A stretch of DNA of 40,838 nt, taken from contig JANYIJ010000175.1 in assembly GCA_025362095.1 (NCBI GenBank), positions 1-40,838 on the forward strand. The letters run 5' to 3'. The stretch comes from Gemmatimonadota bacterium. GTDB lineage: Bacteria > Gemmatimonadota > Gemmatimonadetes > Gemmatimonadales > Gemmatimonadaceae. Positions 5,710 through 37,626 of the stretch are shown piece by piece (within the stretch, counting starts at the first letter, position 1; each line of letters starts with the position of its first letter). The notes beneath the pieces are model-generated. The model saw nothing but the letters and a program-made list of their open reading frames with translations. It ran no database searches and was not told where the DNA came from. Position numbers and translations under genes: made by a program.

Positions 5710-7434
5710 CTACTGCTGACAAGCTCCCTTAGGATCCGGCTTCGGCTTGTCCACCACGATCCGATGATCGAGGTTGCCGACCCGCAGCGCCAGCGCAAAC
5801 ACGAACTTGTCGATCTGCGCCATGTGGTCGTAGTCGATGTATTGCGGCTCGTCCGTAACCTGGTGATAGTCCGCGTGACCGCCCGTCGTCATGAACGCCA
5901 CGGGAATGCCCCACTTCGCGTACGACCAGTGGTCGCTGCGGCAGTAGATGTTCTGCGGATGGCCGTTCGCGTCGAGGTTGTAGTCGAAGTTGAATCCGAA
6001 TTTGCTCTCGGTGTTCACCTTCTCGACGAGATCGCCGAGCTCGGTCGAAAGTCTCCGCGACCCTACGAGCTGCAGATATCCCGGCCCGCCATGCAGCAGG
6101 CTGCCGTCCTTCGCCGTGCCAGTTGCGTCCGTGCCGCGGCCGCGGCCGACCATATCCATATTCAGCTGTGCAACAATCGAATCACGCGCAACGCTCGGCA
6201 ACGGGTGATCGGTGAACAGACCCGAGCCGAGCATGCCCGCTTCTTCGCCCGCGTGCCAGACGAAAACGATCGAGCGCTTCGGCTTGATCTTCCCGCGCGC
6301 GAACGCTTCGGCGATTTCAAGAACCGAAACGGAACCGGAGCCGTCGTCGTCGGCGCCGTTGTAGATCGAATCGACGCGCGCGCCGCCATGCAGTTTGTGC
6401 AGGCTGTCGGTGAGCGCTCGCACCTGCGCGACCTGATCCGCCGTCGGCTGTGTCGGCCCGTTGTCCGCGCCCTGCGGCCGCACGAGCTGCATGAACGCCT
6501 TCACCGAATCGTGGTCCACCGTGCGACCCGCGCGGAATCCGATGTGATCGTTATGTGCGCCAATCGCGACGAACTGTCCTTTGAGTTTTGAATCCGTGCC
6601 CTCGAGGATCGCCACCACGTTGCGGCCGACGATGCGCGAGCCGTCATCGGAGAACTTGATGTTCGACGAGAGCGCTTTGCCCGCGGCGCCCTTCGTGATG
6701 CCGTCAATCGGCCCGCCGAAAATCGCTTCGGCGGCCTTGTTGGTTAGCCCGATCGCGGGCGGATTCGTGTTGTCGCGCAGAAAAATTGGGTTGACCGGAT
6801 GCAGCAGCTGGTTGAGCGCGACCGGATTGATCTGATCGCCCGCAATCGACGCGGTGACCGCGCCGTTTAGTGCGGCTTGATAGCGCCGGAAGCCGTCGGT
6901 CTGAAAGAGCGCCTGTGTCAGCGGCGCGCCAGGACGTAAAATCACGAGCTTGCCGCGCATCTGATCGGTCGTGAGTATGTTCGTCGTGTCGAACGCGATG
7001 CCGCCGTATACGGTGGGCATGTCCGCGAATGGCGTCGGATGTCCGTTCGACTGTGCGATGAAATCGATTCCCCCGTGCAGCGTCGTGCCCCCAACCGAGA
7101 GCGTCGACGATGTGTCGAGCGCGCGGAGCACATATGGCAGCGTCTGGAAGTAGCCGCCGTTTTCGCCGCCCGGCTTGAGTCCGAGCTTCTTCACCTCTGC
7201 GGCGATGTAGTCGGTGCCCTTGTTGTTGTAGATGGTGCCGACCTGCCGGCCCATCATGGAATCGTCGGCAAAGATGTAGAGCCGGGTCATGAGATCGCCG
7301 GCCGTGATGTCAGCCGTAGTGGCCGGTCCGACGTACTTGAGCGGGAGTTCCTTGGCGACCTGCGCGGCGAGCGCCAAGGGAAGAACCGCGGCCAGGGCGG
7401 CGGTACGAAGAATCAGGTTCAGTCGGGTTAGCAT
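5710..7434 (-). CDS. Exported M28-family metallopeptidase
   Basis: A 574-residue exported aminopeptidase-type enzyme. I place the start at the ATG at 7434, which gives a clean signal peptide (LILRTAALAAVLPLALAAQ) with AAGGA five nt upstream. The frame stays open far upstream (to about 8922), but that part is antisense to the divergent gene and is Arg/His-rich nonsense. M28 ligands are complete: His294 (GAHNDH), Asp362 region (GADDDGSG), Glu397/Glu398 (AGEEAG), Asp427 (NMDMVG) and His524 (DYHQVTDE). Unlike its relatives at 400-2316 and 19975-21801, it lacks Gly/Arg-rich inserts, which shows these loops are dispensable. It would release N-terminal residues from peptides in the periplasm or outside the cell. 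Divergent from another M28 gene with only 42 bp between starts. Confidence 0.9.
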   Translation of the reverse strand: MLTRLNLILRTAALAAVLPLALAAQVAKELPLKYVGPATTADITAGDLMTRLYIFADDSMMGRQVGTIYNNKGTDYIAAEVKKLGLKPGGENGGYFQTLPYVLRALDTSSTLSVGGTTLHGGIDFIAQSNGHPTPFADMPTVYGGIAFDTTNILTTDQMRGKLVILRPGAPLTQALFQTDGFRRYQAALNGAVTASIAGDQINPVALNQLLHPVNPIFLRDNTNPPAIGLTNKAAEAIFGGPIDGITKGAAGKALSSNIKFSDDGSRIVGRNVVAILEGTDSKLKGQFVAIGAHNDHIGFRAGRTVDHDSVKAFMQLVRPQGADNGPTQPTADQVAQVRALTDSLHKLHGGARVDSIYNGADDDGSGSVSVLEIAEAFARGKIKPKRSIVFVWHAGEEAGMLGSGLFTDHPLPSVARDSIVAQLNMDMVGRGRGTDATGTAKDGSLLHGGPGYLQLVGSRRLSTELGDLVEKVNTESKFGFNFDYNLDANGHPQNIYCRSDHWSYAKWGIPVAFMTTGGHADYHQVTDEPQYIDYDHMAQIDKFVFALALRVGNLDHRIVVDKPKPDPKGACQQ

Positions 7435-7476
7435 CGCGTCCTTGCGGTGTGAGGTGCGGCGGGAAAAGTTTCCAAC
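7435..7476. promoter_or_regulatory. Very short divergent region between two M28 genes
   Basis: Only 42 bp separate the two start codons, too little for two non-overlapping promoters plus 5' leaders. Promoter elements must overlap each other or extend into the coding ends. The region holds AAGGA for the leftward gene and the near-palindrome GGAAAAGTTTCC (7462-7473) just before the rightward ATG. No -35/-10 pair could be assigned. Confidence 0.4.
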
Positions 7477-9012
7477 ATGAAAACAATACTCTATCGACTC
7501 GCCAATCTGCCACTGTTCCTGCTCGCAATGCCCCTTGGGGCACAGGCGGCCAAGGGCGCGCAGAAAAGTGCCTCCGTTCCCGCCGCGATCGCTTCCATTC
7601 GCGAATCCGACCTCAAGCGTGACTTGTACGCGATGGCCGGTCTCGACATGCGCGGCCGAGAGGCCGGTACCGTGGACGAAATGCGCGCTTCGATGTGGGT
7701 GGCGGATCAGTTTCGTTCCATCGGAGTTAAGCCCAGTGGGAATGATGGAACGTATTTCCAGTGGTGGAACATGCGCCGCACGCGCATCTCGACCATCTCG
7801 AGTTCGGTGACGCTCGACGGGAAGCCGATCGTGCTCTGGACCGAGATCTCGCCGACGACGAATCTCGGCGGCGACGTCTCGGCGCAGACCGTTTTTGTGG
7901 GCGACGGCCGCGATACGACGGTCGACGTAAAGGGAAAGGTCGCCGTGGTGATCATGCAGCCGCCGACCACCGCGCTGCGCAGCACGACCAACACGTACGA
8001 GTACCGGTATGCCCGCGCCGGAATCACGGCGACGGGGAACGCGCTCTCGCGGCGCGGCGCGGCGGCGGTGATCGTCGTCGCGGATTCCACTGCGGACATC
8101 GCATACGAGGGCGTCTGGAGACTTCAGGAGCGCGGTGGGTACGACGTGATTGGCGGAGTGCCGCGCAACGCGGTGACTGCCACGCCGGCGCCGGCGCCTC
8201 GTCTCACTGGAACACCCGTGCTGTTCGTCCAGCGCTCTGCCCTTGGAGCGTATCGCGAGAACGGCCACACCGTCGCGATTCACCTGACGGTTGAGAGCTT
8301 CGATTCGCCGTCGGTAAATATCATCGGCGTCGTGCGCGGCACTGATCCCAAGCTGCGCGACGAATATGTGCTGTTCAGCTCGCATCAGGATCACGACGGC
8401 GTGCGCTACCCCGTGAACGGCGACTCCACTTGGAGCGGCGCCGATGACAACGCGAGCACGAGCGTCGCGCTGCTCGCGATCGCGCGCGCGTTCGTAAAGC
8501 AGCCGGGGAAGCGATCGGCGTTGTTCGTGTTTCACGGCGCAGAGGAGCGCGGCCTGCTCGGCTCGCGGTATCACGCCGCACATCCAGTGGTGCCGATTGG
8601 CAGCATCGTCGCCGTGCTCAACGGCGACATGATCGGCCGCAACAACCCGGATTCGGCGGCGCTGCTCGGATCGCAGCCACCGCATCGCAACTCGACTGAC
8701 CTGGTGCAGATGGCGCTCGACGCGAACGCCGCAACGGGGAAGTTCATCATCGATTCGCTCTGGGACCGCCCGACACATCCGGAAGGCTGGTACTTCCGCA
8801 GCGATCACGTTCCGTACGCGCGGCTCAACGTGCCGGCGCTGATGTTCTCGACGAATCTGCATCCAGATTACCACACGCCGCGCGACAAGCCTGAAAACAT
8901 CAACTACCCCAAGCTCACGCACATGACGAAGTGGATGTACATGACGGGGTGGTACGCGGCCAACTCTGCCAAGCGGCCGGGGATCGACCCGGGATTCAAG
9001 CTGGAGCGCTGA
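7477..9012 (+). CDS. Exported M28-family metallopeptidase, divergent subfamily
   Basis: A 511-residue M28 enzyme with signal peptide (LYRLANLPLFLLAMPLGAQA). A PA-like region at about residues 110-270 precedes the catalytic domain at about 285-490. Ligands are His303 (SSHQDHDG), Asp323/Asp324 (GADDNAST), Glu356/Glu357 (GAEERGLLGS), Asp384 (LNGDMIGRN) and His466 (DYHTPRDKP). It differs from the other three M28 proteins here: GADDNAS instead of GADDDGSG, a GAEERG base motif, and no Gly-rich loop. This suggests a separate subfamily rather than a recent duplicate. The M20 dipeptidase gene starts 3 nt after its stop, so the two are almost certainly one operon acting in sequence on peptides. Confidence 0.88.
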   Translation: MKTILYRLANLPLFLLAMPLGAQAAKGAQKSASVPAAIASIRESDLKRDLYAMAGLDMRGREAGTVDEMRASMWVADQFRSIGVKPSGNDGTYFQWWNMRRTRISTISSSVTLDGKPIVLWTEISPTTNLGGDVSAQTVFVGDGRDTTVDVKGKVAVVIMQPPTTALRSTTNTYEYRYARAGITATGNALSRRGAAAVIVVADSTADIAYEGVWRLQERGGYDVIGGVPRNAVTATPAPAPRLTGTPVLFVQRSALGAYRENGHTVAIHLTVESFDSPSVNIIGVVRGTDPKLRDEYVLFSSHQDHDGVRYPVNGDSTWSGADDNASTSVALLAIARAFVKQPGKRSALFVFHGAEERGLLGSRYHAAHPVVPIGSIVAVLNGDMIGRNNPDSAALLGSQPPHRNSTDLVQMALDANAATGKFIIDSLWDRPTHPEGWYFRSDHVPYARLNVPALMFSTNLHPDYHTPRDKPENINYPKLTHMTKWMYMTGWYAANSAKRPGIDPGFKLER

Positions 9013-19146: not shown

Positions 19147-19295
19147 CGAGTGAACTGTTAACCACTAACTGTTGGTTGGTTAACTAAGGTGTGTCAATTA
19201 GTTGGGGCCGCGCACCGAGAGTTTGGTGCTGCGGCCCCTACTAATTCGTAGACCTTAGTTAACCGACCAACAATTAGTGGTTAACAGTTCACTTG
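19147..19295. repeat. Long intergenic palindrome, copy A
   Basis: Arms 19147-19190 and 19252-19295 pair over 44 nt with one true mismatch (C19169/A19273) and two G-T pairs. The 61-nt core (19191-19251) contains its own stem (AATTAGT...ACTAATT outside, GGGGCCGC...GCGGCCCC inside). It lies between the convergent Asp-box gene (stop 19142) and the DUF4412 gene (stop 19308). Copies B and C are at 21848 and 37482. Possible roles are bidirectional terminator, structured RNA or palindromic mobile element. Confidence 0.92.
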
Positions 19296-19974: not shown

Positions 19975-21801
19975 TCAGGGTACCACGGTCTTCGGCGGCT
20001 TCGCCGGTTTCGTGCCGTTCATTCGCGGGCGTGGGCCGTTCGCAACTTCGACGGTCACATCGCGGAGGTAGTTCGTGATCTTCGCGTAATGCGGGTAGTC
20101 GATGAATTCGGCCTCGTCCGTGCGCTGGTGATAGTCACCGTGCAAACCCGTGAAGAAGAACGCGATCGGCACGCCCTGCAGCGCGTAGTTGTAGTGATCG
20201 CTGCGACGGTAGATGTTGTCGTACCCGGTCCACGTAAGAGTGGTGTCGTAGCGATAGTCGAAGTCGAGCGGCTTCGCGCGCTTCTTGTTGACGCTCGCGA
20301 CCGTCTCGCCGAGGTCTTTCGAATCGAAGTACGATCCGACAACCCCGAGGTAGTCGGGTCCGCCGCCGGGAAGATCTTCGGCGCGGCCACGACCGATCAT
20401 GTCGATGTTGATCTGCGCGACGATCGAGTCCATCGGCAGCGTCGGGTTGTGCGTGAAAAAGTTCGAACCCACGAGACCGGCTTCCTCGCCCGTGTGCCAC
20501 ACGAACAGCACGGAGCGCTTGGGCTTCACTTTCATCGACTGGATGTACTCGGCAATCTCCAGCACGCCCATCGATCCGGAGCCGTCGTCATCGGCGCCGT
20601 TGCTGATTGAGTCGACGCGTGGCTTCGGGAAGAGTTTGCGCACGCTGTCCATGTTCACATGAATCGCCGCGAGCTGTTCCGGCGTGAGCTGGATCATGTT
20701 GTTCGCGATCAGAATCTTGTTGCGCGCGTCGTTGAACGCCTTGAGTGAATCGTGGTCGACGGCGGCGGCGGTCATGCCGATGTGATCGTTGTGCGCGCCG
20801 ATCGCGACGTACTGGTGTTTCAAAACCGGATCGCTGCCGGGAATTACGGCGACGACGTTCCGCGCCCATTCCGATGGCGTCTCGACAAAATCGAGCGATG
20901 CATTCACGGAGCCGCCGGCGATTCCCGGCGTGATGCCGTCGATCGTGGAGCGGCCGAAGAGTCGCGCGGCTGCGGCGCGCGTGAGACGAATCGTTGCTGC
21001 GGGGGCGAGCGCGTCGATTTGCGCGTGAAGAATTGCGAGCGAGTCGACCGGCGCGGGCGCTGCGCCGCCGCGTCCGCCTCGCCCGCCACCACCGCCCGCG
21101 CGTCCCACGCTCTGCGTCGCGACCGTCGGCACGTTGATGGCCGTGCGCTGCGCGGGCGTGAGCGCGTCGAGATCAATCGTTGCGACCGCCGCCGCTCCGG
21201 CAAAGCGGTTTGGTCCGCCGCCGAATCCCCCGCGGCCCGCTCCGCCGCCACCGCGTCCGCCCGCGGGCGCTGCCTGCGGCGCAGCGGGGAAGAGCACGAC
21301 GAACTTTCCGTTCGCTTGCGCGGCCGAGATTTGCGAGAGCGTGTCACCGGTCGTTCCGCCGAAGATCACGTCTGCCGTGCTGATCGCACGCGGAGCGCGT
21401 GCGCCCGGCACTGCGACCCAGTCCTGCTGCCACACGAACGGGTTGCCGTTCGCCGTGAGACGTGAGTGGCTCGTGAACGCGTGCAGGTGGTACGGCAGCA
21501 CTTGGAAGTAGGTGCCGTTGTCACCGGCCGGTACGAGGCCGAGTCGTTTCACTTCGGCGGCGATGTAGTTCGTCCCCTTCATGTTTCCGACGCGGCCGAC
21601 CTGACGGCCCTGCATGGAATCGTCGGAGAACTGATAGAGGCGGATCTGGAGATCGCGAACGCTGATCGCAGAGGCGGTCGGCGCCGGGGCGACTCTCGGC
21701 GGGTTGCCGTACTTGTTGAGTTTTTCGCTCTGGGCTCTCAGGGCGAGAGGTGCGGCGAGCGCGATGATCACGAAGTTGGTGAGACGCACGCGAAACTCCA
21801 T
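19975..21801 (-). CDS. Exported M28-family metallopeptidase with Gly/Arg-rich loops
   Basis: A 608-residue exported aminopeptidase-type enzyme. Signal peptide RLTNFVIIALAAPLALRAQ. Ligands are His337 (GAHNDH), Asp404/Asp405 (GADDDGSG), Glu439/Glu440 (TGEEAG), Asp467 (NIDMIG) and His558 (DYHQRTDE). The PA-like insert (about 110-300) carries two Gly/Arg-rich tracts (about 181-197 and 234-248). It closely resembles the proteins at 5710-7434 and 400-2316. The ATG at 21801 has no strong ribosome site. The 198 bp upstream contain palindrome copy B, then the stop of the copper protein gene. Confidence 0.9.
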   Translation of the reverse strand: MEFRVRLTNFVIIALAAPLALRAQSEKLNKYGNPPRVAPAPTASAISVRDLQIRLYQFSDDSMQGRQVGRVGNMKGTNYIAAEVKRLGLVPAGDNGTYFQVLPYHLHAFTSHSRLTANGNPFVWQQDWVAVPGARAPRAISTADVIFGGTTGDTLSQISAAQANGKFVVLFPAAPQAAPAGGRGGGGAGRGGFGGGPNRFAGAAAVATIDLDALTPAQRTAINVPTVATQSVGRAGGGGGRGGRGGAAPAPVDSLAILHAQIDALAPAATIRLTRAAAARLFGRSTIDGITPGIAGGSVNASLDFVETPSEWARNVVAVIPGSDPVLKHQYVAIGAHNDHIGMTAAAVDHDSLKAFNDARNKILIANNMIQLTPEQLAAIHVNMDSVRKLFPKPRVDSISNGADDDGSGSMGVLEIAEYIQSMKVKPKRSVLFVWHTGEEAGLVGSNFFTHNPTLPMDSIVAQINIDMIGRGRAEDLPGGGPDYLGVVGSYFDSKDLGETVASVNKKRAKPLDFDYRYDTTLTWTGYDNIYRRSDHYNYALQGVPIAFFFTGLHGDYHQRTDEAEFIDYPHYAKITNYLRDVTVEVANGPRPRMNGTKPAKPPKTVVP

Positions 21802-21847: not shown

Positions 21848-21997
21848 CGAGTGAAACCGTTAACTACTAACTGTTGGTTGGTTAACCAAGGTGAAATAAT
21901 TAGTAAGGGCCGCTGCACCAGACATTCGGTGCGCGGCCCCTACGAATTTGTAGACCTTGGTTAACCAACCAACAGTCAGTTGTTAACAGTTCACTCG
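21848..21997. repeat. Long intergenic palindrome, copy B
   Basis: Arms 21848-21892 and 21954-21997 pair along their length with one bulged base and a few mismatches; the inner segments GGTTAACCAAGGT and ACCTTGGTTAACC pair perfectly. The core is 61 nt (21893-21953) with an inner GGGCCGC...GCGGCCC stem. It lies 2 nt after the stop of the copper protein gene (22000) and 46 nt before the start of the M28 gene (21801), so here it separates co-directional genes. Confidence 0.9.
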
Positions 21998-21999
21998 TT

Positions 22000-23328
22000 T
22001 TATCGGCTGCCCTGCGGCATGGTCATGCCCGTCATTTTCTGACTCTTCCTCGCCGCTAACAGCTTATCGAACTCCGGCTGCTCCATGTACGTCACGTCAA
22101 TCCAGCAGTGCGCCATTTCGTCCACGGTGCGATCGCCCCAGCCGACCCACTGATTCGGATCCGGATTGTTCGCGTTCGATGCCGTGTTGTCGTGCCATGC
22201 GGTGAACACGAGCGTGGTGCCCTTCGGAAGCAGCGGCGCGACGGAATCGGCGTAGACGTAGTTCACGTGCCAGCGCCACTGGAAGTTGTTCACCGCGCTG
22301 AGCAGCTCGCGGCGGCCGTCGGGATAAATCGCCTCCATCGTCATCGCCTTGCCGCGCATGTGCATGTGCGGCTGGAAATTCTCGATGCGCGCGGGCGCCT
22401 GCATCACGTAAAAATTCTGCGTAATCGACTTTTCGTTCGGCGCGATATCGAGATCCGAGCCGTGCGTCACGTCGAACATTTTCAGAACGGTCCGGTGCGG
22501 CGGGACGAAGCCCTTGGGATAGAAGTACACGGCGAGCTCCACCGTGTTGTCCTTGGCTTCTTCGCCCATCGCGTGCACGTGGATTTCCCACTTGATGCGC
22601 GCGCCGGGAAGAATGAGCTTGCCGGCGTCGGGCGGAAAAATCTGTCCCGTCTTGCCGACGGCCCACTCCATGAAAAGTCCGGGCCCCATGTTCATGTCCA
22701 TGGCGGTGGACGCGAGTCCGGTCACGCCCTTTTCGTCCTGCAACAGATATGCGAGCGCGTGGTGCACCACCTTGCGACCGTTCGGGAATGACGGCTTCAC
22801 CTCGATCGCGCGAATCCAGCGCGGCTCGGTGACCCCGGTCTCGACGAGCGGACGGAACCACTTGTCCTCGCCCTTCGCCGGCATCGTGAAGTTCTTCGAT
22901 GAAATCACGAGGTCGGGCGGACCAAACGTCTCGGCGAGCTGCCAACGATTCGGGTCCGGAAACTTCGCGGCGGCAGGCATGTCTTTCGCATCGCCCATCG
23001 GCGCGCCCGCATCGACCCATTTTGCAATCGTCGCGATCTGCGCATCGCTGAGGCTGCGGTCGTTCTTGAACGATTGAATACCGACAGATTTGTCGATATG
23101 CCACGGCGGCATCACCCGCGCGACGACGCGCGCTTTGATTTTCGATGCGTTCTTCTTGGCGTCGTCGTACGAGATCAGCGACATCGGCGCGATCGAGTTC
23201 GGCTGATGGCAGACTTGGCACTTTGCCTGAAAGATCGGCGCGACGTCCTTCGCGAACGTCGGGCCGGGGGTCTGCGCATGGGCGATTCCGGCGGCGCATA
23301 CGAACAGCGCGGCGAGTGCAGGTTTCAT
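22000..23328 (-). CDS. Cytochrome c fused to PHM-like type II copper monooxygenase module
   Basis: A 442-residue exported protein. ATG at 23328 is preceded by GAGGAG six nt upstream and gives a signal peptide (ALAALFVCAAGIAHAQ). An ATG at 23346 overlaps the upstream stop (ATGA) and is the alternative. Residues about 25-115 form a c-type cytochrome: haem site CQVCH (Cys37, Cys40, His41) and a candidate axial Met73 (RVMPPWH). Residues about 140-420 match the pattern of peptidylglycine alpha-hydroxylating monooxygenase: His189-His190 (VVHHAL) and His250/His252 (IHVHAMG) for one copper; His321 and His323 (QPHMHMRG) and Met405 (TVDEMAHCW) for the other. All ligands expected from PHM appear present. 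The predicted role is an oxygen- or electron-coupled hydroxylation in the periplasm with the haem delivering electrons; the substrate is unknown. Confidence 0.78.
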   Translation of the reverse strand: MKPALAALFVCAAGIAHAQTPGPTFAKDVAPIFQAKCQVCHQPNSIAPMSLISYDDAKKNASKIKARVVARVMPPWHIDKSVGIQSFKNDRSLSDAQIATIAKWVDAGAPMGDAKDMPAAAKFPDPNRWQLAETFGPPDLVISSKNFTMPAKGEDKWFRPLVETGVTEPRWIRAIEVKPSFPNGRKVVHHALAYLLQDEKGVTGLASTAMDMNMGPGLFMEWAVGKTGQIFPPDAGKLILPGARIKWEIHVHAMGEEAKDNTVELAVYFYPKGFVPPHRTVLKMFDVTHGSDLDIAPNEKSITQNFYVMQAPARIENFQPHMHMRGKAMTMEAIYPDGRRELLSAVNNFQWRWHVNYVYADSVAPLLPKGTTLVFTAWHDNTASNANNPDPNQWVGWGDRTVDEMAHCWIDVTYMEQPEFDKLLAARKSQKMTGMTMPQGSR

Positions 23329-23342
23329 ACGACGCTCCTCGA

Positions 23343-24215
23343 TCATTGGGAGACCTTCACTTTCACAAAGCCGTTCGTCCAGCAGCACTGCGCATGCCCC
23401 GAGCCGGTCACACCCGACGCGTCGTTCGCGCGAACACGAATGATGTAGTCACCCGGAAGCGTGAACGTCACGTTGGTGGACGACTTGCCGCCCGTCGGCG
23501 TGAGACGCGCCGTTGGCGGAGTGAACGTTGCGTCGCCCGGACCCTGGTGCTTGAACCAGGTGAGTGTCACGGGGGTGGATGACCGTGCTTCCGATGCCAT
23601 CGCTCCAGCGGCGTTGCCATCGTCTGTCGCCCAGATATTTATGGCGAGCGGCGCGCCAACTTTCGTGGTCATCGGACCGACCGTGATGCCCAGCGGTCCC
23701 GCGCCATCCGGACCAGTCTCGCTGAATTTGATATTCGGCGGCGTGTTGCCCGAACCCGCCTCGCCTTCGAGCGCGTCGATCTGCCAGTCGGGTTTGAGAT
23801 TTCCAGGAATCGCGTACGTCTCGCCGCGAATCCGCACGGTCCACGTCACCGTCTTGAAGCCGAAGTCCGCGGGCACTTTCACCGCGAACACGCCCCAATG
23901 GCGCTTCGTGTAGAAGCGCGTCGGCTGCCCCTGATTCTGCTCGCCTGGCGAAACGAAGTTGTCGGGCCCGACTGGAATGTCGATGATCTCGTCGGAGTTC
24001 CGGTTATAGTAGCCGAACGCAATGCTGAACGTGCCGTCCTTGTTCTGATACCAGCCCTCAAACGCCGGCGACACAGTCCGCCCTTTCGTGCTCGCCGGCG
24101 CGAACGACTGGGCCGCCGCCGGCGCGGCAGCAACCACAATGACAACCAAAACGACAACCACAACCAGCATGAGCGCGCCCGTAAGCGCCGCGCCGCGCCG
24201 TGCGTTTCGCTGCAT
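23343..24215 (-). CDS. Secreted beta-rich protein of unknown function
   Basis: 290 residues, function not recognised. An N-terminal hydrophobic run (LMLVVVVVLVVIVVAAAPAA) acts as signal or anchor. The middle contains GWYQNKDGTFSIAFGYYNRN and FYTKRHWGVFAVKVP. The C-terminus looks like an Ig/PKD-type domain (GDYIIRVRANDASG) with an adjacent Cys pair (AQCCWTNG). ATG at 24215 with GGAG 9 nt upstream. Its stop overlaps a potential ATG of the cytochrome c/copper gene (ATGA at 23343-23346), so the two are surely co-expressed and may form a complex. I recall similar pairs in acidobacterial and gemmatimonadal genomes, but cannot verify this here. Confidence 0.7.
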   Translation of the reverse strand: MQRNARRGAALTGALMLVVVVVLVVIVVAAAPAAAQSFAPASTKGRTVSPAFEGWYQNKDGTFSIAFGYYNRNSDEIIDIPVGPDNFVSPGEQNQGQPTRFYTKRHWGVFAVKVPADFGFKTVTWTVRIRGETYAIPGNLKPDWQIDALEGEAGSGNTPPNIKFSETGPDGAGPLGITVGPMTTKVGAPLAINIWATDDGNAAGAMASEARSSTPVTLTWFKHQGPGDATFTPPTARLTPTGGKSSTNVTFTLPGDYIIRVRANDASGVTGSGHAQCCWTNGFVKVKVSQ

Positions 24216-25433: not shown

Positions 25434-25517
25434 AGCGTGGACACCACTATAGATGCATGTTTAGTGACGACGGACGGCGGACGACGGTTGGGTCATCATC
25501 CACTCGAGAGAGCTCTT

Positions 25518-26708
25518 TTGCGCGCAATTAATCTCGTGCTCGTAACACTCGCAGCGGCATCGCCGCTGTTCGCGCAGGCCGACATGAAGCCCACCAACGA
25601 CTTTCCGAATCCGTATCGGACGGTCGAAGGCTGGCCGAAGATGCCCGAGGGGCGCACGTGGGGATCCACAAGCGCCGTCGGGATCGATCGCGACGGACAG
25701 AGCGTCTGGGTTGCGGAACGGTGCGGCACGAACAGCTGCGTCGGCTCGACGCTCGATCCCGTGCTGCACTTCGACAAGAGCGGCACGCTAATCAAGAGCT
25801 TCGGAGCCGGGATGATCTTGTCGCCGCACGGGATTTACGTAGATAAGGACAACAACATCTGGGTCGTCGACTGCGCGTGCACCGGCGGCGGTGGCGGAGG
25901 TCGCGGTCGCGGCGGCGCTGGAGGAGCGGCGGGTGCTGCGCCCGGAGCGGCGCCGGCAGCTGCCCCCGTTCCCACACCCGCCCCGACGGCCGGCCATCAG
26001 ATCTTCAAGTTCAGCCCCGACGGCAAACTGCTCATGACGCTCGGAAAGGCGGGCGGCGGTCGCGATCCCGAATTCTTTTTCCAGCCGAACAACATGATCA
26101 TCGCGGCCAACGGCGACCTTTGGGTCGTTGAGGGACATGGGTCGCAGGCTGGCGTCTCGCCCGCGCGGGTTCTTCGGTTTGATAAGACGGGCAAGCTGCT
26201 CGGCCAGTGGGGCACTGTTTACGATCCGGCGAAGATCGACGAGCCGTACGCCTTCAACCAGCCGCACGCGCTCGCATTCGATTCGAAGGGCCGCCTGTTC
26301 ATTGCCGACCGCGGCTACAACCGGATCAAGATTTTTGATCCGTCGAACATGAAGCTGCTCGACACCTGGTACCAGTTCAGCCGGATCAGCGGACTCTGGA
26401 TCGACGGCAGTGATACGATTTACGCGGCCGACTCCGAGTCCGAGACGGTGTCGCGCAATGCCGACGGCACGCCAAGTCGCACGGACTGGAAGCGCGGCAT
26501 CCGCATCGGCAGCGCCCGCGACGGCAAGGTCGTGTCGCTCATTCCCGATCCGTGGTCGCGCTGCCAGCAGGGACAGCAGTGGACGGCAGCGTCGCCGTGC
26601 TCGCCCAGCACCAGCGCCGCGGAAGGGATCGCAGTAGACTCCAAGGGCGTGATTTACGGAGCAGAGGTCGGCCCGAAGGCACTCAAGCGTTACGAAAAAA
26701 AGCCTTAA
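25518..26708 (+). CDS. Exported NHL-repeat propeller, amidating-lyase-like (copy 1)
   Basis: A six-bladed NHL propeller of 396 residues. I prefer the TTG at 25518, which gives the signal peptide [19 protein letters not shown] and has GAGAGAG upstream; the frame is open to a GTG at 25437, but that adds an unlikely N-terminus starting next to the terminator. Blades resemble peptidyl-alpha-hydroxyglycine amidating lyase (PAL): His104 (SPHGIYVD) and His250 (QPHALAFD) fit two PAL zinc ligands and Arg265 (IADRGYNR) fits a PAL active-site Arg; the third His is replaced by Glu369 (AAEGIAVD). A Gly/Ala/Pro-rich insert fills about 123-157. First gene of an operon with the molybdenum hydroxylase. Its role is uncertain: lyase, binding protein or sensor. 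Confidence 0.75.
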
Positions 26709-30886: not shown

Positions 30887-33178
30887 TTACGGAAGCTTGA
30901 GAGCTACCAGCTTAGTGCTCTCGCCCGCCCCTGTCGCGAACACAATGTACTGCTTGCCGTTGTACAAGAACGTCATCGGCACCGCGCTCGTCGAGCCTGG
31001 AATCGTCACGGCACCCACCTGCTTGCCTGTGGCCTTGTCGAACGCGTAGAGCTGAGCCGCCGGTGCCGCAGCAGCAGCGCGTCCACCGCCGGCACCACCA
31101 CCACCGCGCGCGCCACCACGCCCGCCACCACCGCCGCCGCTGCGGCCGGTGCCATTGATCAGCAGCGTCTTCGTCACGATGACCTGCGGCTGGCTCGTGT
31201 TGTTCGGAACCTTCGGCAGCGTCACGCCTGCGAACATGGGGTCGTTCGTCGGAACCGCATCACGCCAGATTCCACCGTTCGGCTGCCACCACTTCCTATC
31301 GCCCGTGTTCAGGTTGTATGCCGTGATTCCGCCAAGCTCCTGCGGCTTGAAGATCGAGATTCCGCCGATGGAGTTGGCGACTTGTACGCGATTGAACGCG
31401 CCCGATGACCCGCCTTCTTGCGGCGCGTTGTAGTTCGCGGGCGTAGGCTGCGCGCCCGGCTTGCCGCAGCTGTTGTGCGGCGAGCCGTACGGAATCTCGG
31501 AGCACGGATCGTGCACCACCGAGATCACGCTCATTCCTGACTGCGCGCCGACGTACACCATTCCGGTTTCCGGATCCGCCGCCGTGCCCCCGTCGATGTT
31601 CACGCCGCCCGACGCGCCCGGCGCATACCACGAGCAGCTGTACTGCGCAGGACCGTTCTTGCCCTTGCCGTCGAGCGGCGAACCAGGGATGAAATACGGG
31701 CCCATGCGGCACTTCTTCGCGAGCTTCAGTGCGGAGTCCTTGATGGCCGGCGTGTAGTCGATCAGGTCCTTCTCCATCAGTCCCATCTGCGAGTACGGAA
31801 CCGGACGCGACGGAACCGGCTGCGTTGGCGACGTCACCTCGCCCGGGACTTCGGTCTGCAGCACCGGCGTTTCCGGAATCGGCCAGATCGGTTCGCCCGT
31901 GACGCGGTCGAGCACATACAGCCAGCCGATCTTCGTGCTCGACGCGATGATCTTGCGCGGCCTGCCATCGATCGTGACGTCGAGAAGGTTCGGCGCCATC
32001 GGAATGTCGTAGTCCCAGATGTCGTGGTGCACCATCTGGAAATTCCACTTCCGCTTGCCGGTCTTCACATCGATCGCGACGACGTTGTTTGCGAACAGGT
32101 TGTTGCCGGGGCGATGGCCGCCGTACTCGTCCATGATCCCTTCGCCGACCGGGATGTAGACGAGCCCAAGATCCGGGTCCGCACTGTACGTCGCCCACGG
32201 ATCCACCTTGCCCGTTCCGGGATCGCCGTGCTTCGAGCCGTTCTTCCAGGTCTCTGAGCCGTATTCGCCGGGGAGCGGGAGCAGATTGAACTTCCAGAGC
32301 TGCTTCCCGGTCTTGATGTCGAAGCCGCGGATCGTGCCAGAGATGTTGTGATTGTTCAGAACGTAGTAGCCATGAATCGCCGAGTTGCCGACGATAAACG
32401 TGTTGCCCACGACGATGCCCGGCGAACTGTTCGCGACCTGACCCTCGGCGGGATCGATGCCGATCGTGCCGTCAGCGCCGGTCTTTTTCACTGCGTCCCA
32501 CTTCTCGCCGGGCTTTGCCTTGCGCGCCGGGTAGGCTTCGCTGATCTCAAGCGGATTGGAATCGTCGACCGCGAGCGGGACGAGCGGATATCCGAGCCCG
32601 TCCATCAGATCGACCACGCCGTCCTTTCCGAACTTTGGATCTGCCTTGCCAGTCTTGGCGTCGATCGAGACGAGGTGATACCCCGGCGTGACCACGAGCG
32701 CGCGCTCTGCGCTGCCGTCCGTCCAGTACGCGAGCCCGCGTCCGGAGAACTGGCGGGGCGCTTTCTGCCAGCGAATTCCCTCGTCTAACTTGTAGCTCCA
32801 GAGTGTGGAGCCATCGGCAGGATTAATCGCGTAAGCGTAGCGATGCGTCGTCGCGACCGTGAGCAGGCGTCCGTTCGCGAACAGCGGCGTGGTGCGATAG
32901 TACTCGTCGTTGCCGTCTTTCGCCGCGTCCCACTGCCAGGCGACCTGGAGCGAGCTGAAGTTCGACGCGTTGATCTGGTCGAGCGGAGAGTACCGTGTGC
33001 TCCACGCGTCGGCGCCCCAGGCACGCCACTCGCCGGCGACGTTTCCACGGACGACTGCCTTGCCCTGGCGAGCGTTGGAGACGGTTGCCGCGGCGCCGAA
33101 TACGACGGCGACCACCGCGCCCGCGAGCGCGACCGATCGAAGAAAGAAACGGGTGAAACCGAGCTGTTTGCGGTTCAT
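30887..33178 (-). CDS. Periplasmic PQQ-dependent dehydrogenase
   Basis: 763-residue quinoprotein with N-terminal hydrophobic signal/anchor (residues about 11-36). It is an eight-bladed propeller with tryptophan-docking-like repeats and the diagnostic HHDIWDYD motif (384-391), followed by PQQ-contact segments such as IGWLYVLDR. No haem domain is fused; the electron acceptor is likely the cytochrome c encoded just upstream. A Gly/Arg-rich insert (about 683-708) lies before the last blade. Family substrates are alcohols or sugars; no specificity can be assigned. The ATG overlaps the cytochrome stop (ATGA at 33175-33178). Its stop directly abuts the repeat element. Confidence 0.92.
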   Translation of the reverse strand: MNRKQLGFTRFFLRSVALAGAVVAVVFGAAATVSNARQGKAVVRGNVAGEWRAWGADAWSTRYSPLDQINASNFSSLQVAWQWDAAKDGNDEYYRTTPLFANGRLLTVATTHRYAYAINPADGSTLWSYKLDEGIRWQKAPRQFSGRGLAYWTDGSAERALVVTPGYHLVSIDAKTGKADPKFGKDGVVDLMDGLGYPLVPLAVDDSNPLEISEAYPARKAKPGEKWDAVKKTGADGTIGIDPAEGQVANSSPGIVVGNTFIVGNSAIHGYYVLNNHNISGTIRGFDIKTGKQLWKFNLLPLPGEYGSETWKNGSKHGDPGTGKVDPWATYSADPDLGLVYIPVGEGIMDEYGGHRPGNNLFANNVVAIDVKTGKRKWNFQMVHHDIWDYDIPMAPNLLDVTIDGRPRKIIASSTKIGWLYVLDRVTGEPIWPIPETPVLQTEVPGEVTSPTQPVPSRPVPYSQMGLMEKDLIDYTPAIKDSALKLAKKCRMGPYFIPGSPLDGKGKNGPAQYSCSWYAPGASGGVNIDGGTAADPETGMVYVGAQSGMSVISVVHDPCSEIPYGSPHNSCGKPGAQPTPANYNAPQEGGSSGAFNRVQVANSIGGISIFKPQELGGITAYNLNTGDRKWWQPNGGIWRDAVPTNDPMFAGVTLPKVPNNTSQPQVIVTKTLLINGTGRSGGGGGGRGGARGGGGAGGGRAAAAAPAAQLYAFDKATGKQVGAVTIPGSTSAVPMTFLYNGKQYIVFATGAGESTKLVALKLP

Positions 33179-33618
33179 TGTGGGGGCCTCTTGTCGCGTG
33201 AGTCGATGAGAATCTTTTTCATGGCCACGGTGTCGGGAGCGAGTTCAGTCGTGCCCGCCGGCATCGCGTAGACCTTCAGCAAATACGCCGTCACGTCAGC
33301 TGCGTCGTTCGGGTCGAGCGAGCCAGGATTGTCCTGCGGCATCTTCTGGCTGATGTACAGATACAAATCGGACAGCGGGTGCGACCGCCAATTCTGGTCA
33401 TACATCGCGCCCTGATGCGACGATGGCGTGTGACAACTCAGGCACACGCCTGCATACGTTTGAGCCCCGCGTTTCGCTTGCACATCCGTGTACACGCCGA
33501 GCTGCGTGGAGCGCATCGAGTCGGGCTTCGTCGCGGGCGCGTCCTGCGCGCGGGCGAGTCCACCGACGCTGCTGATTATGCATGCGGAGAGCGCGATCGT
33601 CCATCCCGTGCACTTCAT
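33175..33618 (-). CDS. Periplasmic c-type cytochrome, partner of PQQ dehydrogenase
   Basis: 147 residues from the ATG at 33618: signal peptide (TIALSACIISSVGGLARA), haem site CLSCH (Cys59, Cys62, His63) and axial Met93 (SQKMPQDNPG). It is a single-domain class I cytochrome. Both ends overlap neighbouring genes by ATGA, so it is translated in step with HupE-like and PQQ proteins. Probable role: accept electrons from the PQQ enzyme and pass them to the respiratory chain. The frame is open upstream into the HupE gene, but that extension removes the signal peptide and is rejected. Confidence 0.92.
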   Translation of the reverse strand: MKCTGWTIALSACIISSVGGLARAQDAPATKPDSMRSTQLGVYTDVQAKRGAQTYAGVCLSCHTPSSHQGAMYDQNWRSHPLSDLYLYISQKMPQDNPGSLDPNDAADVTAYLLKVYAMPAGTTELAPDTVAMKKILIDSRDKRPPQ

Positions 33619-34988
33619 GAATCTGCTCCATTCCTGGTGTTGAGCTTGTTGTACACGCCAAACAGCAGCCAGAGCGCGCCGGCCAGCACCAGCAAGAGTA
33701 TGATCCCGCGCATCGCGCCCGCCGCGAAGGCCGCATCGAACACCGGCCGCTGAAAATTGAACTGCCGCAGCACCACCCACCGCTCGAGCATCCAGTGCCA
33801 AGCCGTATGGGCGACGAGCGCCGAAAGCAGGATCGTCCCCATGCGCTCAGCCACCACGTACTTGAACAACGCATTGAGCAGCGGAATCGCTACGAGCAGG
33901 CAAGCCAGCTGGCCCAGCTCCACACCGATGTTGAACCCGAGAAGCGAAGTCACGAGATGTGTCCCGGCAAACTGGAGCGACTCGCGCAGCGCGAACGAAA
34001 AGCCGAAACCATGGACGAGTCCGAACGCGAATGCGATCAGCCAGCGCCGCTCGAGCTTCGGTCCGACGATGTTTTCGAACGCCATGTAGACAATCGACAG
34101 CGCGATCAGGACCTCGATCAGCGGCGGAAACCACAAGGCGCTCGGCGCAAACCCCAGAGCGGATGCGAACAGTGTGATTGAGTGCGCCACCGTGAACGAC
34201 GTGATGATCGCGATCAGCGGCCGGATCCGCCTGAACGGAATCACAAGGCACACGATGAACAGCAGGTGATCGATGCCGTCGAGAATGTGCGCGAAGCCGA
34301 GCTGGATGAAACGCCAGAGCGCTTGACTCCAGCGCGGATCGAGATGGACGAGGCCGGGATCGCCGCTGTACTCGAACGCGCGCTCGGCGCCGCCGGCAGG
34401 GATGAAGCGCAGGATCGTGTTCGTGCGCACGCCGAGGCGCGCGAGCGCGGGGTTGATGGAGAAACGAGAGCTGTCGGAGGAAATCGGATACTCGAACAGC
34501 ACATCAATCATCGCCTGCTGCCACGCGAGTTCGGTGGTTGATGGAAGTCCGGGGCCGGTGACGTGCGTGACCGCGGATTCGTAATTCTCGAACGAGCGAT
34601 CCGACGGCAGCGCCACATGCGCCGCGATGATCTGCGCGTTTGCGAGCTTTGTAGTGCCCTCGTAGACGTCCACCTGATTCGCGATCCAGGTGCGCGCGGC
34701 GTCGGGGACCAGGGAGTCGATTCCGGGAAAGTTCAGATACGACGCGCCGTGCAGTGGGTACTGCATGTCGCGCATCGCTTCGAGTGGCACACGCACGAGG
34801 AGATGAAGCTTGTGACCCTCGGGTTTCACGAAGGCGAGGATCGTGACGCGCGCGGGAATCTCGTGCGCGGACGGTGCCGACGGCGTCGCCAACACGAGTC
34901 CCGCCGCGAGCAGAACGCTCCAGCGCAGGCGCTTCGGCCGGCCCTCTAACGAATGGCCGATGTGGGGCGTAAAATGGGAGCGTTGCAT
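33615..34988 (-). CDS. HupE/UreJ-family membrane protein with large periplasmic N-terminal domain
   Basis: 457 residues. After a signal-like segment (RWSVLLAAGLVLATPSAPSA) a soluble domain of about 190 residues begins with HEIPARV, followed by seven or so membrane helices (about 245-455). The helices contain the HupE/UreJ pattern: ILDGIDHLLFIV, FTVAHSITL and GLVHGFGFSFAL, rich in His and Asp that could bind metal. HupE/UreJ relatives transport nickel; this two-part form is uncharacterised. First gene of a coupled operon with cytochrome c and PQQ dehydrogenase, so it may supply a metal or take part in their maturation. ATG at 34988 has no clear ribosome site. Confidence 0.82.
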   Translation of the reverse strand: MQRSHFTPHIGHSLEGRPKRLRWSVLLAAGLVLATPSAPSAHEIPARVTILAFVKPEGHKLHLLVRVPLEAMRDMQYPLHGASYLNFPGIDSLVPDAARTWIANQVDVYEGTTKLANAQIIAAHVALPSDRSFENYESAVTHVTGPGLPSTTELAWQQAMIDVLFEYPISSDSSRFSINPALARLGVRTNTILRFIPAGGAERAFEYSGDPGLVHLDPRWSQALWRFIQLGFAHILDGIDHLLFIVCLVIPFRRIRPLIAIITSFTVAHSITLFASALGFAPSALWFPPLIEVLIALSIVYMAFENIVGPKLERRWLIAFAFGLVHGFGFSFALRESLQFAGTHLVTSLLGFNIGVELGQLACLLVAIPLLNALFKYVVAERMGTILLSALVAHTAWHWMLERWVVLRQFNFQRPVFDAAFAAGAMRGIILLLVLAGALWLLFGVYNKLNTRNGADS

Positions 34989-35040: not shown

Positions 35041-36327
35041 ATGAGAAGCAGATTCTGGCCCACACTTTTGCTAAGCGCGTTTGGGGCCGTTGCGGTGGGT
35101 GCGCAAGTGCCGCGGTTCCAGGTGAACATGCTCTGGCCGAAGCCGATGCCGGAGCGGTGGATTCTCGGATCGACGGTCGGCGTGGCCGTCGACGCGAACG
35201 ACCACATCTTCGTGCTCAACATTCCGGACGCGTTCAACTCTCGCACGGAAATCGGCGCGGCCCCGCCGGCGGGCGTCGCGGTGACTGGTGAATGCTGCGT
35301 GGGCGCACCGGCCGTTCTCGAGTACGATCAGGCGGGCACGGTCGTCGCGCACTGGGGCGGAGCGGGCGCGGGCTACACATGGCCGCAGCGGCCGAGTGGA
35401 ATTGCGATCGACAAAGCGGGGAACGTGTGGATCGGCGGCAGTGGACCGAACGACACGCAGATCCTGAAGTTTTCGCACGACGGAAAATTTCTAATGGCGG
35501 CCGGGAAGATCGTCGCCGCGCCTGCCGCACCGGCGGCCGCTCCAGTCACGCCTGACACCGCGTATCAGGGCGTCAGTGGTGCAGGGAGGGGCGCTGCGCC
35601 AGCCGGTCGTGGTGGACGCGGCGGCCGCGGAGGGCGCGGCGGACCACCACCGACTCCGGCGAACAGCGCGAGCACGGAAAGCTTCGGGGGCGTGACGCGG
35701 ATTTCGTTCGACGAGAGCGCGGGTGAAGCGTTCGTCGCGGACGGCTCTCGCAACCATCGCGTTGCGGTTGTCGACATGAACACGGGCGCGATCAAGCGCT
35801 TCTTCGGCGCGTACGGCAAGGCGCCGTCGGATGCAGCGTCTGCGGCGTATTCGCCCGACGCGCCGGCATCACAACAGTTCGGTGCCGTGATGTGCGCCGC
35901 AGTGAGCAGCGACGGCATGGTCTACACCTGCGACCGCACCAACGATCGCATTCAGGTCTTCAAGAAAGACGGCTCGTTCGTGAAAGAAGGAACGGTGATG
36001 CCCAAGACGATCCGCGAAGGGTCGGTCTCCGACATCGCTTTCTCGCGCGACACGAAGCAGAAGTATCTCTACGTCGCCGACGGCATGAACAATCAGGTGC
36101 ACGTGCTCGATCGCGCGACGTTCGCGATGGTCACGCACTTCGGCGACGGCGGCCGCGTGCCGGGCGAGTTCGCATTCCTCCACAGCATTGCGACCGATTC
36201 CAAAGGCAACATCTACACGGGCGAAACCTACGAGGGCAAACGCGTGCAGAAGTTCACGTATCAGGGGCTCGGCACGGCAAGCACGAAGGCCGTCCTTTGG
36301 CCCGCAGCGACGGGAGCCAAGCCATGA
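35041..36327 (+). CDS. Exported NHL-repeat propeller, degenerate amidating-lyase-like (copy 2)
   Basis: 428 residues with signal peptide (FWPTLLLSAFGAVAVGAQ). It aligns closely with the next gene's product, but a Gly/Arg/Pro-rich insert (about 180-203) extends it. Positions where the neighbour keeps PAL-like residues are changed here: Ser119 for His (RPSGIAID), Ser236 for Tyr (ADGSRNHR), Met284 for His (AVMCAA), and NIPD for HRAD. Only Arg299 (CDRTNDR) and His381 (FLHSIATD) remain. This suggests a non-catalytic partner or binding protein. It keeps an ECCVG Cys pair shared with copy 3. ATG start with AGGAG; its stop overlaps the next ATG. Confidence 0.78.
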   Translation: MRSRFWPTLLLSAFGAVAVGAQVPRFQVNMLWPKPMPERWILGSTVGVAVDANDHIFVLNIPDAFNSRTEIGAAPPAGVAVTGECCVGAPAVLEYDQAGTVVAHWGGAGAGYTWPQRPSGIAIDKAGNVWIGGSGPNDTQILKFSHDGKFLMAAGKIVAAPAAPAAAPVTPDTAYQGVSGAGRGAAPAGRGGRGGRGGRGGPPPTPANSASTESFGGVTRISFDESAGEAFVADGSRNHRVAVVDMNTGAIKRFFGAYGKAPSDAASAAYSPDAPASQQFGAVMCAAVSSDGMVYTCDRTNDRIQVFKKDGSFVKEGTVMPKTIREGSVSDIAFSRDTKQKYLYVADGMNNQVHVLDRATFAMVTHFGDGGRVPGEFAFLHSIATDSKGNIYTGETYEGKRVQKFTYQGLGTASTKAVLWPAATGAKP

Positions 36328-37466
36328 ACCGCAGGACGATTCTCGGCGCGGCGACGTTCGTCGCCGCCATCTCCGCGCTGTTCGTCGGACAGCGCGCGCT
36401 CGATGCGCACGCGCGAGTCGGCGCCGTGACGGCTCCTACGTTTGAAGTGGATCCGATGTGGCCCAAGCCGCTCCCGAATCACTGGGTGCTTGGCAACGTG
36501 ATCGGCGTCGGCGTCGACGCGCGCGATCACGTGTTCATCGTGCATCGCGCGGATACGGCAGACTCGCTGACGACCTGCTGCGTCGCCGCGCCGCCGGTGA
36601 TCGAGTTCGATCCGCAGGGCAACGTGGTCTCGGCGTGGGGCGGGCCGCACGAGGGCTATGTGTGGCCGGGCTCGAACCACGGCATCGCGATCGACAACAA
36701 AGGCAACGTGTGGATCGGCGGCAACGGCAACACCGATTCGCACATTTTGAAATTCACGCACGACGGAAAATTCCTCGCGCAGATCGGCATTCCGAACCAG
36801 GCGGCAAACAGCAACGCGCTCGATCATTTCGGGCGCGTTGCGAAGATCTCGTTCGACTTCGCGGCCAACGAGGCGTTTGTCGCCGACGGCTACATCAACA
36901 AGCGAATCGCCGTGCTCGACATGGACAACGGCAAGATCAAGCGCTTCTGGGGTGCGTACGGCCACGTGCCGTCGGACTCGAACCTCGGCCCGTACAACCC
37001 CGACGCGCCGATCGCGCAGCAGTTCAGAAATCCCGTGCACTGCGCCGAGCCGAGCATGGACGGACTCGTGTACGTGTGCGACCGCCCGAACGACCGCATT
37101 CAGGTGTTCAAGAAGGACGGTTCGTTCGTGAAGGAAAAGATTCTCTTCCCGAAAACGCTTGGCGACGGCTCGGTGTGGGACATCGCGTTCTCGAAGGACA
37201 AGGATCAGAAGTACATCTTCCTCGCCGACGGCAAGAATGAGCATGTGTACGTGATGGATCGCGCGTCACTGGAGATTCTCACGATGTTCGGCGACGGCGG
37301 GCGGCAGCCGGGGCAGTGGTTCGCGGTTCACTCGATCGCGACTGACTCGAAGGGGAACATCTTTACGACTGAGACTTACGAGGGCAAGAGACTACAGAAG
37401 TTTGTGTATCAGGGGTTGAAGAGTGTGGCGGCGATGAATCAGGGTGTGGTTTGGCCGAAGAAGTAA
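36324..37466 (+). CDS. Exported NHL-repeat propeller, amidating-lyase-like with complete active-site set (copy 3)
   Basis: 380 residues from the ATG at 36324 (ATGA overlap with copy 2; GGGAG upstream). Signal peptide RRTILGAATFVAAISALFVG. By pattern comparison with animal PAL from memory, it keeps an Arg (Arg75, VHRAD), three zinc-type His (His119 SNHGIAID, His239 PVHCAE, His336 AVHSIATD), a Tyr (Tyr190, ADGYINKR) and a second Arg (Arg254, CDRPNDR). PAL splits alpha-hydroxyglycine peptides into amide and glyoxylate. A lyase function here is plausible but unproven; many bacterial NHL proteins are only binders. No Gly-rich insert. Followed by palindrome copy C. Confidence 0.78.
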   Translation: MNRRTILGAATFVAAISALFVGQRALDAHARVGAVTAPTFEVDPMWPKPLPNHWVLGNVIGVGVDARDHVFIVHRADTADSLTTCCVAAPPVIEFDPQGNVVSAWGGPHEGYVWPGSNHGIAIDNKGNVWIGGNGNTDSHILKFTHDGKFLAQIGIPNQAANSNALDHFGRVAKISFDFAANEAFVADGYINKRIAVLDMDNGKIKRFWGAYGHVPSDSNLGPYNPDAPIAQQFRNPVHCAEPSMDGLVYVCDRPNDRIQVFKKDGSFVKEKILFPKTLGDGSVWDIAFSKDKDQKYIFLADGKNEHVYVMDRASLEILTMFGDGGRQPGQWFAVHSIATDSKGNIFTTETYEGKRLQKFVYQGLKSVAAMNQGVVWPKK

Positions 37467-37481
37467 AACCCCCCGTACAGA

Positions 37482-37626
37482 AGTGAACTGTTAACGACTA
37501 ACTGTTGGTCGGTTAACGAAGGTTAAATGATCAGCCCGGACTCCGAATCGTTTCGAACGGTTCGTGGCCCGGGCTGATTTTCACACCTTGGTTAACCGAC
37601 CGACAGTTAGTGGTTAACAGTTCACT
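37482..37626. repeat. Long intergenic palindrome, copy C
   Basis: Arms 37482-37523 and 37585-37626 pair over 42 nt with two clear mismatches. The 61-nt core (37524-37584) has a sequence largely unlike copies A and B but folds similarly: ATCAGCCCGG...CCGGGCTGAT plus an inner CGAA...TTCG. It lies between convergent stops (37466 and 37638). Confidence 0.92.

Follow-up and report, generated by a model that had tools for sequence, protein, structure and literature searches.

How electrons reach, and cross between, the two separated coppers is an open question for PHM (peptidylglycine alpha-hydroxylating monooxygenase) and DBH (dopamine beta-hydroxylase), both of which are textbook enzymes. The locus described here raises a particular form of this question, namely whether an enzyme of this type could be supplied with electrons by a haem that is part of the same polypeptide. 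The locus lies in a stretch of DNA of 40,838 nucleotides (referred to below as the window), taken from a metagenome-type assembly of 3.0 Mb in 253 contigs, whose nearest named relatives are Gemmatimonadota. The preferred reading, with a probability of roughly 0.55, is that the gene would encode an exported, self-contained dicopper monooxygenase or hydroxylase supplied through its own fused haem.

The fusion gene occupies positions 22000..23328 on the minus strand (stop codon 22000-22002, coding sequence 22003-23328) and encodes a protein of 442 amino acids. A ribosome-binding-like GGAG is found immediately 5' of the ATG. The domain order is a signal peptide, a c-type haem domain and then a beta-rich copper module at about residues 138-417. 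The signal peptide comprises residues 1-19 (MKPALAALFVCAAGIAHAQ; 23272..23328, minus strand) and was recognized by inspection of the sequence; pLDDT is low for residues 1-18. Read in this way, the protein is probably exported and extracytoplasmic. The fusion of a c-type cytochrome with a PHM-like module had been proposed in the original prediction, and it is borne out by the translation, by conservation and by the fold match of the AlphaFold model.

Structure prediction followed by comparison with PHM had been suggested as the means of checking that proposal, and the outcome is a PHM/DBH-type fold. The AlphaFold2 model of the fusion protein has a mean pLDDT of 82, was obtained from an input alignment of only 14 rows, and contains poorly predicted loops around residues 212-214, 289-291 and 399-401, the last of which is near Met405. 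All top Foldseek matches of the model are PHM or DBH structures, the best seven having E values of 3e-12 to 8e-12. In VIA-align comparisons, PHM and DBH structures give Z scores of about 16-20 over 226-295 residues, whereas PNGase F, the family next in rank, reaches 9.0. The likeness to PHM (1phm, 1sdw) includes both the double jelly-roll fold and the order of the copper ligands: the module (residues 138-417; 22078..22917, minus strand) aligns with 1sdw at Z 18.8 and an rmsd of 3.0 over 244 residues. The best fold match is DBH (4zel, Z 20.1). The overall fold is also that of PNGase F and further double jelly-roll proteins, but these match much more weakly (Z about 9), and the copper sites are those of PHM and DBH; PHM and PNGase F are placed in one Pfam clan (PMC8812541).

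Comparison at the sequence level leads in the same direction, provided that a profile is used. A search of solved structures with the fusion protein as a single sequence retrieved nothing, and only a profile, built from 14 rows, retrieved human DBH, its best match (E 7e-12), with five of the six copper ligands aligned residue by residue. The Pfam copper monooxygenase models PF03712 and PF01082 have no match in the window protein, although related fusions of the phylum match PF03712 weakly (6 of 14 relatives). Because the family profile finds DBH, this Pfam miss is read as a limit of model sensitivity.

The copper ligands are H107, H108, H172 / H242, H244, M314 in PHM, where the coppers are 11 A apart (PMC6123673), and H262, H263, H333, H412, H414 and M487 in DBH (PMC4846438). 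In the fusion protein, the CuH site would be formed by H189-H190 (22759..22764, minus strand), aligned to the HH of dopamine beta-hydroxylase, together with H250 (22579..22581, minus strand), the equivalent of PHM H172, which is aligned to the His of DBH LEVHY. The CuM site would comprise H321-x-H323 (22360..22368, minus strand), aligned to the HTH of DBH, and Met405 in DEM (22114..22116, minus strand). The alignment with 1sdw ends at model residue 419, corresponding to PHM 328, and this register places Met405 on PHM M314. Every one of these residues is conserved in 95/95 relatives. The family alignment of 95 rows includes 80 from a scan that used a [DE]EM pattern, and for these rows the conservation of M405 is partly built in; the rows collected without the pattern retain M405 as well.

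Only seven His and Met residues are the same in every one of the 95 relatives, namely M73, H189, H190, H250, H321, H323 and M405, and they are exactly the predicted metal ligands. Such agreement is far beyond chance; the fusion and its predicted ligands are genuine, and strong selection maintains them. The residues named in the original prediction (HH at 189-190, H250/H252, H321/H323 and Met405 in DEM) are all found at those numbers in the translation, with the exception that H252 does not hold as a ligand. Position 252 is His in 72 of the 95 relatives, the others having S, T, F, R, G or Y there; consequently, it cannot be a required ligand, and the third CuH ligand is H250. Judged by predicted fold and ligand conservation, the protein belongs to the copper type II (PHM/DBH-type) monooxygenases.

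The haem domain carries the attachment motif CQVCH at residues 37-41 of the translated protein (23206..23220, minus strand). C37, C40 and H41 are present in 91/95 of the called ORFs. The four rows without CxxCH result from start codons called too far downstream, and the motif was located upstream in all four, being reached via a frameshift in L028 and standing directly after a stop codon in L092. Met73 of MPPW (23110..23112, minus strand; 95/95) is the probable second axial ligand of the haem. The Pfam model Cytochrome_CBB3 matches residues 27-105 of the window protein below its cut-off, while 11 of 14 relatives give a match to it at E<=0.01. The features of a c-type cytochrome are thus found in this protein and its host, including CxxCH with a Met axial ligand, the signal peptide (by inspection) and assembly machinery, represented in the window genome by Cytochrom_C_asm (cytochrome c assembly) genes. 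The haem domain and the copper module remain fused across the family, as almost all phylum-wide matches start within the haem domain.

In the proposed mechanism, the N-terminal monohaem c domain (His41/Met73) would draw electrons from the respiratory pool of the periplasm and pass them singly to CuH (H189, H190, H250). The electron would then cross from CuH to CuM (H321, H323, M405), as in PHM and DBH. At CuM, O2 would be activated, and the substrate would be hydroxylated at one of its C-H bonds. Such a cycle would involve export, loading with copper and haem, electron transfer from haem to CuH, and hydroxylation. If the mechanism is true, the covalently attached haem donor would allow each electron step to be followed by haem spectroscopy.

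The source of electrons is the point at which the best-surviving alternative departs from this mechanism. PHM and DBH use ascorbate (PMC6123673, PMC4846438), and a PHM-type monooxygenase could still receive its electrons from a small diffusible molecule, with the haem domain only docking to a redox partner or stabilizing the protein. The N-terminal DOMON domain of DBH, which has a cytochrome-domain fold yet lacks haem ligands (PMC4846438), calls for caution in assigning haem supply, as it indicates that an N-terminal addition need not be the electron source. However, the haem ligands are retained family-wide, and docking alone would not call for them. Moreover, the window genome has no match to the ALO family (terminal ascorbate-synthesis oxidases), a result that is compatible with the use of ascorbate that is imported or present in the environment, or of some other small reductant. 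The fusion, the assembly genes and the absence of ALO fit a haem-fed enzyme, without proving it, and a diffusible reductant is considered unlikely.

The fusion protein is not a single curiosity but a member of a large family that is common among bacteria of soil and sea. Of 200 Gemmatimonadota genomes searched with a profile and with single sequences, 70 contain relatives, and a single genome may have as many as 13. When one genome of each species was scanned, at least 568 further relatives came to light, most of them in Acidobacteriota, and the haem domain is present wherever checked. The best 80 of these at least 568 are mainly from Acidobacteriota and Gemmatimonadota; some of their records bear the label Proteobacteria. 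The plasmids searched contained no relative of the fusion protein. Standard Pfam models largely miss the family, the PF03712 cut-off being passed in only 20 of the 200 genomes compared with 70 for the family profile. Searches of the open-licence literature in PubMed Central turned up no published work on a haem c-PHM fusion and no report of an assayed family member, which is weak evidence. If the preferred reading is true, the family would represent a widespread uncharacterized C-H hydroxylation system in the abundant soil phyla Acidobacteriota and Gemmatimonadota.

Two individual relatives deserve mention. The gene L009 (1456-3159, minus strand) has an AhpC/Redoxin domain ahead of the cytochrome c and copper modules, giving a three-part redox fusion. 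The record of L093 is titled as a Bordetella parapertussis MAG, yet the gene groups with Acidobacteriota, and the label or the binning is doubtful.

The fusion gene also has a constant partner. This gene (23343..24215, minus strand), located 14 bp upstream, encodes a protein of 290 amino acids with an N-terminal signal or anchor and two Ig-like beta-sandwich domains. An invariant Q-C-C-W motif is found near its end (residues 276-279; 23379..23390, minus strand), in 80/80 homologues and in 38/38. The structure model of the partner has a pLDDT of 85, and fold searches return generic Ig-like matches only, at Z about 8-10 over about 100 residues. There is no Pfam or NCBIfam match, and the partner family is unnamed. 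The link between the two genes is new here, the original prediction having made no mention of the partner.

The two genes form a unit. Of the 87 loci in the subfamily of the window gene, 85 have a partner homologue adjoining the fusion gene in the same orientation, the exceptions being L055 and L098, the latter of which is cut 0.2 kb downstream; in the set of 80 loci, the pair is always co-oriented. Approached from the partner, 88 of the 95 strong matches in the phylum sample have a fusion gene within 1.5 kb and always on the same strand, while the remaining 7 have no fusion match on their contig among the matches listed. The fusion gene is upstream in 51 of these 88 cases and downstream in 37. 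Since the gene order varies between lineages, the pair is probably held together by selection and not simply inherited as one operon. In a FastTree tree, which has long branches, the partnerless members fall outside a branch with a support of 100. The partner may itself be the substrate, may present the substrate as a subunit or may load the metals. Across the 80 loci, no third gene accompanies the pair constantly, the only recurrent families being a PQQ-enzyme family (10/80) and a TonB-type receptor (15/80).

The substrate site separates the partnered subfamily from PHM. The peptide-carboxylate anchors of PHM are presumably R240, N316 and Y318 in PHM numbering. Counted from the ligand anchors, these positions are occupied in the fusion protein by Q319, H407 and W409, each conserved in 87/87 members of the partnered subfamily, and positions 319, 407 and 409 differ in the other subfamily. 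With invariant Q, H and W in place of the anchors, peptidylglycine is unlikely to be the substrate, and the idea that glycine-extended peptides might be hydroxylated finds no support. The chemistry is probably shared with PHM and DBH, while the pocket, as read from the sequence, does not appear to be that of a peptidylglycine enzyme.

Several differences in architecture accompany this change of pocket. Compared with PHM, the fusion protein has an additional haem c domain, altered carboxylate anchors and no disulfide-stabilized core; in 88 of 95 relatives there is no Cys after residue 135, and the window protein has one. DBH resembles it in having an extra N-terminal domain ahead of the CuH and CuM domains. 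However, that domain is a haem-free DOMON beta-sandwich in DBH and a helical c-type cytochrome in the fusion protein, which also lacks the C-terminal dimerization domain and the copper-module disulfides; DBH has several disulfides (PMC4846438). Within the PHM/DBH-type copper monooxygenases, haem c supply and the partner would set the fusion protein apart, and by its substrate site it is not PHM. A broader proposal can be put forward only tentatively, at somewhat less than even odds. According to it, the family would be a large ascorbate-independent bacterial class of dicopper hydroxylases, in which the fused haem c feeds CuH directly, the QCCW partner is part of the working enzyme, and the Gln/His/Trp substrate site is distinct from those of both PHM and DBH.

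The partner and the substrate site bear in opposite ways on another alternative, in which fold and copper sites persist in a protein that is no hydroxylase. It would instead sense redox state through its copper and haem, or act as an oxidase or reductase (one making H2O2, for instance), with the QCCW partner downstream. The constant pairing with a non-catalytic-looking Ig-type protein bearing a Cys-Cys motif would suit such a role, as would the lack of a constantly linked substrate or pathway gene. However, both copper sites are strictly conserved, including the Met of CuM, which in PHM serves the chemistry of O2, and the invariant, subfamily-specific Q319, H407 and W409 beside the sites point to a specific substrate. 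This alternative is therefore regarded as improbable, more so than the diffusible reductant.

The window also encodes NHL propellers with PAL-like features, at distances of 2 and 12-13 kb from the fusion gene. Two are in tandem on the plus strand (35041-36327 and 36324-37463), and solved structures of PAL (peptidyl-hydroxyglycine lyase) are among the matches of the 36324 propeller; the 35041-36327 propeller gives its profile match in two separate segments, and its reading frame may be broken. The third (25437-26708, plus strand) matches PAL at E 2e-12, yet by inspection it lacks the third His and the Tyr.

These genes would allow a bacterial PAM-like pathway, in which the fusion protein is the hydroxylating half and a nearby PAL-like propeller (36324-37463 or 25437-26708) cleaves the hydroxylated product. 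In the window genome (G000), all matches of the propeller profile A4 share the 40-kb contig with the only PHM-like gene, PAL structures are among the matches of both propellers, and a propeller match occurs in 63 of the 66 genomes with a listed PHM-like match, compared with 95 of 200 overall. Three His and one Tyr are invariant among four homologues of the 36324 propeller, with spacings that fit what are presumed to be the zinc-site residues of PAL. Attractive as it is, this pairing is rejected as very unlikely: phylum-wide linkage is at chance (1 pair within 5 kb vs 0.9 expected, 6 within 25 kb vs 4.3), other NHL proteins outscore PAL, the co-occurrence is confounded by ancestry, and the PHM peptide-anchor positions are altered.

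Other features of the window are the following. M28-type peptidases are encoded on the minus strand at 400-2316, 5710-8922 and 19975-21801, and the last of these stays beside the fusion gene in the closest relative. A PQQ-type dehydrogenase (30887-33178, minus strand) is accompanied by a small cytochrome c (33175-33801, minus strand), and 10-13 of 80 related loci have a homologue of the PQQ enzyme close to the fusion gene. Finally, a 146-bp imperfect palindrome with 59-nt arms occurs three times in the window (19149-19293, 21850-21995 and 37482-37626) and, in both orientations, at many other places in the genome; it is a dispersed element, possibly MITE- or REP-like.
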